NCBI GenBank assembly: GCA_025360085.1
Contig: JANYCW010000042.1
Span: 1-45,112 of the forward strand
Direction: 5' to 3'
DNA length: 45,112 nt
From: Actinomycetes bacterium
GTDB taxonomy: Bacteria; Actinomycetota; Actinomycetes; Nanopelagicales; Nanopelagicaceae
The notes below the pieces were generated by a model that did not search any database, was not told the DNA's origin, and was given only the letters and a program-made list of their open reading frames with translations. Numbering within the stretch: the stretch's first letter is position 1; each line of letters starts with the position of its first letter. Positions 11,288 through 13,680 of this stretch are shown here, piece after piece. The position numbers and the translations under genes were made by a program.

Positions 11288-12424
11288 ATGTCCACAATCG
11301 AACGGAATTTTGTACTTACTTTTGGACAACCTCCCGACATTATTGCCGCGGCCCCTGGGCGGGTTAATTTAATAGGGGAACATATCGATTACAGCGATGG
11401 TTACGTTCTCCCCTTTGCCATTGCAGATAGAACCTATTGTGCAATTGGAAAGCGTTCTGACCGACGTGTTCACATCGCCTCTGCTCAACGCAGAAATAGA
11501 GTTATTTCAATCAAACTAGATGATATTAAACCTTCAAGAGCGGGCAAGTGGGAGCGCTACGTCTTAGGTGTTATTTGGTCGTTAGGGATTAATCAAGGCT
11601 TGGATATTATGATTGATGGACAAGTTCCCTTAGGTGCGGGTCTTTCATCATCGGCGGCCCTTGAATGCAGTGTTGCAACCGCACTCAATGATTTATTTTC
11701 ACTTGGTATTGACTTGGAATCTCTAGCTCGCCTGACACAAAAAGCTGAAAACGATTACGTCGGTGTCCCTTGTGGAATCATGGACCAATCAGTTTCGCTC
11801 ATGGCAAATCGCGGTTCGGCGCTTTTACTTGACTGCCGCGATTTGAGTTCTCGTAACGTTTCATTTGATGTCGCCGCGAGCGGTCTTGAACTTCTCATTA
11901 TTGATACCCAAGCCCATCACTCGCTGACCGATGGTGGATATGCCCAGCGCAGAGCATCATGCGAATCAGTCGTTGCCAAGCTATCAATTAGGTCGATGCG
12001 CGAACTAACTTTAGAAAAACTTGAAGCCTCGAAAGATCTCATTAGTGGAATTGAGTTTATGAGAGCTCGACATGCGGTCACCGAGATTCGACGTGTTTTA
12101 GATGCGGTGGTTGCACTAGAAAAAGAGGATTTTGTAGATTTAGGCAGATTATTAAACGCCTCACACGCCTCTCTTCGCGATGATTACGACGTTTCATGTC
12201 CTGAACTCAACACGGCCGTTGCTGCATCTATTTCTGCCGGCGCCCTCGGTGCCCGAATGGTTGGCGGAGGTTTTGGGGGCAGCGCAATCGCTCTTATAAA
12301 AGCAAGTCACACACAAGAGACCATTAAAAATATTGAAACGCAATTTAGAAAAAATAGATTTAAGGCGCCAAGATTTTTTACTTCACTTCCCAGCCAAGGC
12401 GCGCAGATTATTCAACGGGGTTAA
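11288..12424 (+). CDS. galK: Galactokinase
   Basis: Phosphorylates galactose to galactose 1-phosphate with ATP, the first Leloir step. The GHMP-kinase family features are all present in 378 residues: the galactokinase signature GRVNLIGEHIDYSDGYVLP near the N-terminus, the ATP-binding loop PLGAGLSSSAALE, and the C-terminal GGGFGGSAIALI motif. The order galT-galE-galK with short gaps indicates an operon divergent from the alpha-galactosidase. Its last 17 bp overlap the 3' end of the ACT-domain gene on the opposite strand, so the two transcription units converge with no room for a conventional terminator. Confidence 0.94.
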   Translation: MSTIERNFVLTFGQPPDIIAAAPGRVNLIGEHIDYSDGYVLPFAIADRTYCAIGKRSDRRVHIASAQRRNRVISIKLDDIKPSRAGKWERYVLGVIWSLGINQGLDIMIDGQVPLGAGLSSSAALECSVATALNDLFSLGIDLESLARLTQKAENDYVGVPCGIMDQSVSLMANRGSALLLDCRDLSSRNVSFDVAASGLELLIIDTQAHHSLTDGGYAQRRASCESVVAKLSIRSMRELTLEKLEASKDLISGIEFMRARHAVTEIRRVLDAVVALEKEDFVDLGRLLNASHASLRDDYDVSCPELNTAVAASISAGALGARMVGGGFGGSAIALIKASHTQETIKNIETQFRKNRFKAPRFFTSLPSQGAQIIQRG

Positions 12425-12647
12425 TGGATATTACTTCTACACCGCCGATTGAGTTAAGAAGATTTATAAGATCGGTTGGGTCACTTCCTGGCACTGCAAC
12501 GGTGATGTCATCGAAGCCACGACCGCCTTCAGATTTCAACACTATAAGTTCGCGAATATCGCCTCCAGCCGAGCCAATTGCCGAAGCAAGCAGACCAAGC
12601 GAGCCGGGTAGATCTGGAATTGCTACATTGAGACGAAATAGGGCCAT
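12408..12647 (-). CDS. Free-standing ACT-domain protein
   Basis: A 79-residue protein consisting of a single ACT domain: RLNVAIPDLPGSLGLLASAI matches the first strand, the ligand-binding Gly loop and first helix, and the rest gives the beta-alpha-beta-beta-alpha-beta pattern. ACT domains usually bind amino acids and are attached to metabolic enzymes; a free one may act as a sensor subunit. No partner enzyme is adjacent, so its ligand is unknown. The ATG at 12647 lies 6 nt after TAAGAT (12659-12654), suggesting a leaderless transcript separate from the Rieske gene upstream, whose stop is 34 bp away. Confidence 0.75.
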   Translation of the reverse strand: MALFRLNVAIPDLPGSLGLLASAIGSAGGDIRELIVLKSEGGRGFDDITVAVPGSDPTDLINLLNSIGGVEVISINPVE

Positions 12648-12681: not shown

Positions 12682-13563
12682 TTACGCGAGTATTACCCAA
12701 GCACCCTCTATAGCTACTTTGAGTTTAGGAAGTGGAGTTGTAGCTGGCCCAACTGTGGCAGCACCTGACTTAAACGGATCAAATTTGGAGCCATGGCAAG
12801 GACAAATTAAAGACAAACTCACCACGTCATATGCCACAGTGCACCCTAAATGCGTGCAGATTGCAGAATAAGCAAATACACCAGTCTTAGTTCTAAACAG
12901 GATCGCAGGTGCTCCATTTGCTAGTACGAAATTTTTCGTTGCTCCGACTTTGAGTGCCGCAAGTTTTACAATCTTAGTTTTAGTGGCTGCAGAGGCATTA
13001 TCTTGCAGATTTTTTGGTGTAAATATCCTGCCAGCCCCAGCAAAGGCAACCGCCATTGCACCGATTATCCCAACACGCATGACTCCCCGACGCTCTAGCG
13101 ACATTGTAAAACCCTTTCGATTATTTTTAATGAGTAGCAAGTAAGACAACCATAGGACTGCATACGCGGTATCGCTCGCTAGAAAATAAGGATTGACATG
13201 AAAACTACTTGCTAACCACAACCCCACGGACATTGAGAATCCCCCGAAAGCGGCAAGTGATGGAACAACCCACAAAATTGTAGCTAGCCCAATAGCAAAT
13301 TCAGTAATCATTACAACAATACCGACTTGAATAGAGTGCTCAATCAATTTATTAAAGGCAAAGCCAACGGGAGATTGAGCTGAATACGCACTCAACTGTG
13401 TGCCGATAAAAGTTGAAGAACCTCGAGTTAAGAAGCCAGGATCTGTGGCCTTATCCCACGCGGCATATATCCACGTAAAGCCAAGCCAAAAGCGCATGAT
13501 GCGTAAAGGTAGCCCTTGATTTCGCCAAGATTGTGCGGCAACTCGAAAAATTCCTGAATTCAT
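12682..13563 (-). CDS. DoxX-like membrane domain fused to a Rieske [2Fe-2S] domain
   Basis: The protein has 293 residues from ATG 13563. The first ~150 residues contain about four hydrophobic segments in the pattern of the DoxX/DoxD family. Then LERRGVMRVGIIGAM gives a twin-arginine-like motif before a fifth hydrophobic segment. The C-terminal ~110 residues are a Rieske domain with both cluster motifs intact, CTHLGC and CPCHGS. This suggests a membrane redox protein with its iron-sulfur domain outside the cytoplasm; electron donor and acceptor are unknown. The reading frame extends upstream to 13632 but would overlap the tRNA gene. The chosen ATG has TACTAT (13576-13571) 7 nt upstream, supporting a leaderless start. 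It is not next to a cytochrome bc complex. Confidence 0.82.
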   Translation of the reverse strand: MNSGIFRVAAQSWRNQGLPLRIMRFWLGFTWIYAAWDKATDPGFLTRGSSTFIGTQLSAYSAQSPVGFAFNKLIEHSIQVGIVVMITEFAIGLATILWVVPSLAAFGGFSMSVGLWLASSFHVNPYFLASDTAYAVLWLSYLLLIKNNRKGFTMSLERRGVMRVGIIGAMAVAFAGAGRIFTPKNLQDNASAATKTKIVKLAALKVGATKNFVLANGAPAILFRTKTGVFAYSAICTHLGCTVAYDVVSLSLICPCHGSKFDPFKSGAATVGPATTPLPKLKVAIEGAWVILA

Positions 13564-13608
13564 GATTGAAATAGTAGAGGTAAGGCCGTCGCTTCGCCAT
13601 GAATAAAG

Positions 13609-13680
13609 CTCCCTGACTTGGATTCGAACCAAGAACCTGCCGGTTAACAGCCGGCTGCTCTGCCATTGAGCTATCAGGGA
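13609..13680 (-). tRNA. tRNA-Asn (GTT anticodon)
   Basis: A 72-nt cloverleaf reads on the minus strand. The 7-bp acceptor stem is TCCCTGA paired with TCAGGGA, with G as discriminator base. The anticodon stem GCCGG/CCGGC closes the loop CTGTTAA with anticodon GTT, and the T arm has GGTTCGAATCC. CCA is not encoded. A GTT anticodon after U33 gives the UGU context that tRNA-guanine transglycosylase recognises, and tgt is present in this window. Confidence 0.95.

Follow-up and report, generated by a model that had tools for sequence, protein, structure and literature searches.

The fusion gene and its surroundings

What lies at positions 12682-13563 of the window, the whole 45,112-nt stretch of DNA that was analyzed? 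The minus strand carries a gene for a 293-amino acid protein, with its ATG at 13563-13561 and a stop codon that ends at 12682, exactly where an earlier note on this DNA had placed it. What that note had observed holds overall, and its interpretation of the protein is supported in part. The domain search that it proposed assigns residues 21-121 to DoxD (PF04173; E 6.8e-11, 42.8 bits against a cut-off of 22.7) and residues 211-280 to Rieske (PF00355; E 1.1e-11, 44.9 bits against 20.3), both above the curated Pfam cut-offs. The membrane part had been called DoxX-like; it is a four-helix DoxD domain, and no DoxX model is found among the Pfam matches. An AlphaFold2 model built on a 63-row alignment (pLDDT 86.3 and pTM 0.71 for the whole protein) shows the four helices of DoxD, one further helix and a Rieske β domain.

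All of the features that follow are on the minus strand. The DoxD domain (residues 1-150; 13114-13563), delimited by PF04173 and an AlphaFold2 domain model and predicted to have its N terminus inside, contains TM1 (18-40; 13444-13512) with invariant R24, T30 and K38, TM2 (77-96; 13276-13335) with invariant E88 and G92, TM3 (101-119; 13207-13263), and TM4 (130-147; 13123-13176). The helix limits are those of the model, and the invariant residues are those of the alignment. A conserved PYF motif (125-127) just before TM4 would be outside if the protein is N-in, and extra helices are modeled at 3-15, 53-63 and 67-74. The twin arginine R158-R159 (CGT CGG; 13087-13092), part of an ERRGVMR motif (157-163), stands out in the alignment as an internal Tat-type signal, and the fifth modeled helix (158-180) begins at it. 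The membrane segment proper, TM5 (160-180; 13024-13086), identified from the model and an energy scale, is marginally hydrophobic and is followed by R/K residues. The Rieske [2Fe-2S] domain (197-293; 12685-12975), identified by PF00355 and a fold match and modeled as a β domain over residues 197-292, holds a CTHLGC box (236-241; 12841-12858) with ligands C236 and H238 and disulfide C241, and a CPCHGS box (254-259; 12787-12804) with ligands C254 and H257 and disulfide C256. The four ligands and the two disulfide cysteines are kept without exception in 63/63 rows, which makes this a Rieske domain of the disulfide type.

A TACTAT -10 element (13571-13576) lies 7 nt ahead of the ATG, and the TACTAT-N7-ATG arrangement at 13576-13561 supports this start. 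A TANNNT element is found 6-7 nt upstream of a nearby start codon in 40/63 rows and in all 36 of the nearest rows, and at other spacings in 0-8 of those 36. The promoter thus looks conserved, and the mRNA looks leaderless, beginning just past a tRNA-Asn(GTT) gene (13608-13680; ARAGORN) that lies directly upstream here, as it does in 11/11 relatives scanned, and that serves as context only. A longer open reading frame with a TTG start was rejected because it extends into the tRNA-Asn, and the leaderless ATG is favored.

Downstream and possibly co-transcribed is a 79-amino acid ACT-like ORF (12408-12647; Pfam ACT E 0.0018, below cut-off), conserved at the locus. It is on the same strand as the fusion and is 64-94% identical in those relatives that matched. 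It is unlikely to be an obligate partner of DoxD, because it is kept in five of six loci from which DoxD has been lost (no match in L054).

The twin arginine and membrane assembly

R158 and R159 are invariant in 63/63 aligned rows and are never KR or KK. The loop ahead of the pair varies, the nearest conserved columns being the acidic residue just before it (D/E in 56/63) and R163 (53/63). The RR, with a hydrophobic stretch after it, recurs in 109/109 distinct fusions and in 11/11 fusions inspected from a second family of the same class, and several distant fusions carry RREFLRG. The pair is therefore not a chance occurrence, being invariant within an otherwise variable loop and present in every distinct fusion. 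The earlier note would have taken lack of conservation of the pair as evidence against its own reading; conservation is complete.

The same note compared the protein with actinobacterial QcrA, which uses Sec and then Tat, and the analogy is sound. As in QcrA of the Sco2149 type described by Tooke 2017 (PMC5449189), an even number of Sec helices precedes an internal RR, the loop being of ~10 amino acids, a marginal last helix is followed by positive charges, and the C-terminal Rieske domain would lie outside. Unlike QcrA, the fusion has a four-helix DoxD domain rather than two QcrA helices and is not beside qcrA. Among the features expected of dual Sec/Tat targeting, the even helix count before RR with one helix after it is present (4 + 1 in the AlphaFold2 model), and so is a weakly hydrophobic last helix with positive charges behind it: the predicted insertion energy of TM5 (Hessa scale) is above zero in 55/63 rows, with a median of 0.74, and a median of 4 K/R falls within the 25 residues after the helix in the 63 rows. 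A lower hydrophobicity of the last helix than of those inserted by Sec is not seen, however, since TM5 is the least hydrophobic helix in only 9/63 rows; TM1 and TM4 are equally marginal, and so hydrophobicity alone does not mark TM5. The helices of the genome's own QcrA have energies of -1.1, -1.3 and +0.6, the same pattern as that tabulated in Tooke 2017 (PMC5449189).

Assembly by Sec and then Tat is strongly predicted for the fusion. Sec would insert the four DoxD helices with the N terminus inside, while the twin arginine and the marginal helix 5 stay on the cytoplasmic side. Folding of the Rieske domain and acquisition of its [2Fe-2S] cluster would take place in the cytoplasm, and Tat, whose TatC is encoded in the genome, would recognize the internal RR and translocate helix 5 together with the folded domain. 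The cluster would end up outside, tethered above the face of the DoxD bundle that bears the conserved loops of DoxD. Might the RR instead be a mere positive-inside topology signal in a protein inserted wholly by Sec? The RR loop is positively charged, and TM5 does not clearly differ from the other helices, yet lysine would serve topology equally well and RR is invariant. Moreover, the Rieske-only descendants of the fusion (see below) begin shortly ahead of RR, and the bacterial Rieske examples named in Tooke 2017 (PMC5449189) are Tat substrates. We regard wholly Sec-driven insertion as very improbable and dependence of the fusion on Tat as highly probable.

In one distant family, five of six members inspected (L168, L171, L182, L198 and L199) have a four-cysteine insert (C-x7/8-C-x6/8-C-x4-CP) in the cytoplasmic loop between TM4 and RR, which could hold a further metal or cluster at the inner face.

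Could the fusion be a derivative of bc1 (QcrA), or an additional Rieske subunit in the respiratory chain? The 12 NCBIfam matches listed for the protein are all below their own cut-offs, and the best match of the Rieske half is indeed the QcrA model NF050121 (E 2.4e-17), but with 63.4 bits against 275 and over residues 227-286 only. The true QcrA of the genome, a positive control encoded on another contig, scores 386.5 bits. Not only is the membrane part of the fusion DoxD, but in 7/40 genomes of the genus the fusion and the Rieske-only gene are both missing, and there is just a weak match at the level of a QcrA-like Rieske domain. Both readings are extremely improbable. A QcrA-derived membrane part was rejected on the Pfam assignment to DoxD, the score of the QcrA model below its cut-off and the presence of the true QcrA elsewhere, and Pfam and NCBIfam thus uphold the earlier description of the membrane part as unrelated to QcrA. 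The further statement that the gene is far from any bc1 genes stands to the extent that it is not beside the genome's QcrA, a comparison that covers QcrA alone in a draft genome.

Tooke 2017 (PMC5449189) covers the QcrA, haem-MoCo, polyferredoxin and YkuE-related families of dual-targeted proteins, and in one sentence mentions Kitasatospora setae KSE_30950, 'a further actinobacterial Rieske homologue ... predicted to have five TMDs'. KSE_30950, set beside the fusion by its published description alone, shares with it five helices, an RR adjacent to helix 5 and a Rieske domain, and probably belongs to the DoxD–Rieske family; the word 'doxx' is absent from the main text of that paper. The Sco3746 (haem-MoCo) and NapGH-like polyferredoxin families of the same source resemble the fusion in their five helices, RR before helix 5, outside cofactor domain and separate-gene counterparts, but their membrane and cofactor domains differ. 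No description of a DoxD–Rieske family was found in the literature searched, a body of work that includes few subscription papers, and the consulted text of PMC13311259 and PMC2754497 has no sign of the fusion. The design has hardly been described before, and the KSE_30950 sentence is the closest prior mention found. The fusion would add a large conserved class to the few membrane proteins known to need two translocases in sequence.

Distribution and separability of the two halves

The host, a freshwater actinobacterium, has a draft genome of 1.63 Mb (61 contigs, 99% complete), in which profile searches match one DoxD, five Rieske proteins including the true QcrA, and one TatC. Two of the other Rieske proteins (G000:C55, ~25365 and ~34950; L003 and L004) have an RR near the N terminus and a common small module (GPTLxxTxxGQ...GFTY) followed by a low-complexity linker.

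A search across Actinobacteria, as proposed in the earlier note, recovers the same fusion in several families. It is full-length in 107/201 genomes of the window's own family, incomplete genomes included, and 191/201 have any match, many of them weak and at the level of a QcrA-like Rieske domain. The 40 genomes of the window's genus comprise 26 with a full-length fusion, one in which it is cut at residue 216, six with a Rieske-only gene and seven with neither; PF04173 DoxD is absent by profile search from the latter two groups. In the second family, one of large genomes, 74/200 genomes have the fusion, and in one large-genome genus of the same class it is full-length in 62/63 genomes, the remaining one matching as far as residue 243. 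Three further families come from a sample of 396 genomes of the phylum. Among the best 80 of 562 confirmed places in a contig scan are fusions from one Cellulomonas-labelled MAG, one groundwater MAG, one other actinobacterial MAG and one Chloroflexota-labelled MAG; the nearest named relative among them carries the label Candidatus Planktophila (MAG L077), with further relatives among Nanopelagicales MAGs. MAG labels may mislead, several rows titled Streptomyces or Bifidobacterium being Nanopelagicaceae-like. As judged from these sequences, the DoxD–Rieske design is widespread in actinobacteria. Domain databases likely list DoxD + Rieske architectures.

The six Rieske-only genomes of the genus carry a short Rieske gene alone between dusB-dgt-dnaG and at least galT (gal genes), and DoxD is found nowhere in them (0/6; three are drafts, 86-92% complete). 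The genes begin 2-14 codons ahead of RR, depending on the chosen start, and their products look like plain Tat precursors. In a Rieske tree (99 columns, low resolution) they are interspersed with the fusions and occupy three branches, two of them forced by well-supported nodes. pN is well below pS in each of four pairs (L050 left out), so the Rieske-only genes are evidently maintained. One clade (L051, L054 and L055) has lost both disulfide cysteines and kept all four ligands; disulfide loss in three of six Rieske-only genes was considered as a repeated correlate of DoxD loss and rejected, one clade being one event. In this clade the ATG lies 2, 0 and 0 nt past the tRNA-Asn 3' end given by ARAGORN (L051 5000, L054 5326 and L055 5349, respectively), and tRNA processing may thus create the leaderless mRNA.

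The converse arrangement is seen in the second family, where nine loci in at least three genera have DoxD-only genes, with no Rieske remnant beside them at E <= 0.01. The flanks of these loci, guaA and PspC-domain genes above all, recur at loci of the fusion, and when 10/23 second-family fusions were added to a quick DoxD tree the DoxD-only genes fell inside the fusions; the Rieske half has therefore probably been lost. With Rieske-only genes in the genus and DoxD-only genes in the second family, DoxD and Rieske are separable modules, and natural deletions of either half suggest that the Tat unit is self-contained. Separate-gene counterparts are also noted for other dual-targeted families (Tooke 2017, PMC5449189). 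Since each half survives alone in some lineages, an obligatory electron path from DoxD to Rieske is not universal.

In another family a divergent DoxD-type gene adjoins 3/6 Tat-type Rieske genes, two of the three scoring above the PF04173 cut-off (48.6 and 47.0 bits) and one below it (20.7 against 22.7). Separate and divergent genes lying side by side support a functional tie between DoxD and Rieske. A single clade of all fusions is weakly rejected by the Rieske tree (AU p 0.027, 99 columns) but not by the DoxD tree (p 0.143). The split genes of one genome (G077; L052/L145) were rejected as a natural fission, because their overlap holds unread bases and is probably an assembly gap.

The DoxD module, the Rieske cluster and a possible redox role

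What might a DoxD bundle do beneath a Rieske cluster? Because a fold search with the whole model is swamped by Rieske matches, DoxD was modeled alone (residues 1-150; AlphaFold2 pLDDT 90.5, pTM 0.84). Its best PDB match is NACHO/TMEM35A (Z 11.2, rmsd 3.5, 126 aligned), followed by the vitamin-K-dependent carboxylase (HTTM) at Z 8.1 (rmsd 3.6, 117 aligned), Z 8 being within the chance range for helical bundles, tetraspanin CD53 at Z 7.6 and VKOR at Z 6.0; Foldseek returns no match at E <= 0.001. The links of the modeled fold to NACHO/TMEM35A and to vitamin-K enzymes are suggestive only, and in the literature searched nothing was found that joins TMEM35A with DoxX, or DoxX with the vitamin K-dependent carboxylase/HTTM. 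The earlier proposal of a quinone- or thiol-linked enzyme finds no direct support for thiol linkage in the 63-row alignment, where no cysteine is among the conserved columns of the DoxD part.

For the Rieske half, the top solved-structure match is the arsenite oxidase small subunit AioB (1g8j_B; Z 14.8, rmsd 2.5, 101 aligned), with PetC3 and others within 1. AioB is a subunit beside a molybdenum subunit, and the likeness is one of fold; unlike the fusion, AioB has no DoxD part. Position 259 is Ala in 52, Ser in 7 and Gly in 4 of 63 rows (Ser259 in the window), and position 261 has Phe in 53 rows and Tyr in the other 10 (Phe261 in the window). Ser and Tyr hydrogen bonds raise the potential of the bc1 Rieske cluster, with decreases of 130 and 65 mV reported in yeast (PMC12954380). 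Because these residues are mostly absent, the cluster potential is uncertain; extrapolating from the yeast values in that source, we infer a potential below that of ubiquinol-type bc1 and fit for menaquinol, with the exception in mind of a Phe-bearing Rieske protein that has a high potential (PMC12954380).

The most likely role is quinol-linked electron transfer at the outer face, in which DoxD would hold (mena)quinol near that face and the Rieske cluster would take electrons singly from the quinol and pass them to an extracytoplasmic acceptor. Both the quinol linkage and the direction are tentative, and we place this reading a little short of even. To the explanation as a whole, namely a polytopic redox protein of the membrane, from a family widespread among actinobacteria, together with its predicted assembly and role, we give about even odds.

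The opposite direction would apply if the fusion were a TQO-type thiosulfate- or thiol:quinone oxidoreductase with Rieske in the place of DoxA, electrons passing from a sulfur donor outside to the cluster and on to the quinone pool. A disulfide-type Rieske cluster is too oxidizing to feed menaquinone easily, and the predicted lower, menaquinol-fit potential makes transfer from quinol to an outside acceptor the likelier direction. Thiosulfate:quinone oxidoreductase (TQO) includes a subunit of DoxD type, and even in the TQO of Acidithiobacillus the catalytic mechanism of DoxD is called unclear (PMC6335251). The DoxDA proteins of Acidithiobacillus and Bacteroides have the same layout, with a partner domain following the DoxD membrane domain at the C terminus (PMC6335251, PMC6158253). 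In the fusion, however, the partner is Rieske and not DoxA: DoxA is absent from the protein by Pfam and from the genome (0/1, a 99% complete draft), the NCBIfam TQO DoxD model NF041179 matches at 4.8e-5 but with 23.4 bits against a cut-off of 300, and no sulfur-oxidation gene is found among the neighbor proteins scanned (representatives). A TQO-type enzyme is accordingly unlikely.

Alternatively, DoxD could be a membrane scaffold or quality-control module, as its best PDB match, the assembly factor NACHO/TMEM35A, would suggest, with Rieske as a redox sensor or auxiliary electron carrier in envelope maintenance. The persistence of DoxD alone in several genera fits this, and so does the gene context. 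An HtrA-like trypsin/PDZ protease gene lies directly downstream on the same strand in 21/30 loci from the search of the window's family, with the small ACT-like gene next in relatives; genes for a PspC-domain sensor kinase and a LuxR-type regulator are nearby in the second family; and OmpR-type two-component genes are near 9/13 loci in three other families (sequence clusters, representatives scanned). Among the neighbor proteins scanned (representatives), only regulators, the HtrA-like protease and housekeeping genes recur, and there is no recurring enzyme partner; the neighborhood hints at envelope maintenance, no more. But the protease gene is absent from the window, neighborhoods vary across lineages, and K38 and E88, both charged and invariant, point to a site and not to a scaffold. 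We think this rather unlikely.

Returning to quinol oxidation at the outer face, a broader and speculative proposal can be made, to which we give a similarly low probability. DoxD/DoxX bundles may be quinone-binding modules that share the membrane core of the vitamin-K carboxylase, and the fusion may be a minimal haem-free, one-chain quinol oxidoreductase that carries out the bc1 step from quinol to Rieske in the absence of cytochrome b and supplies an acceptor on the outside for envelope redox maintenance. Loss of DoxD would then remove the need for the disulfide form (compare the one disulfide-less Rieske-only clade). The fusion pairs DoxD with a spectroscopically visible one-electron center, which makes DoxX/DoxD function directly measurable.

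At one locus (L146, 2448-3418) a second Rieske gene stands in tandem just upstream of the fusion, and the gene ahead of it matches the Pfam family '3-demethylubiquinone-9 3-methyltransferase' (E 1.4e-44). At L148 (3701-5854) the Chloroflexota-labelled fusion is divergent from a gene for a DUF255 thioredoxin-domain protein (DsbH).
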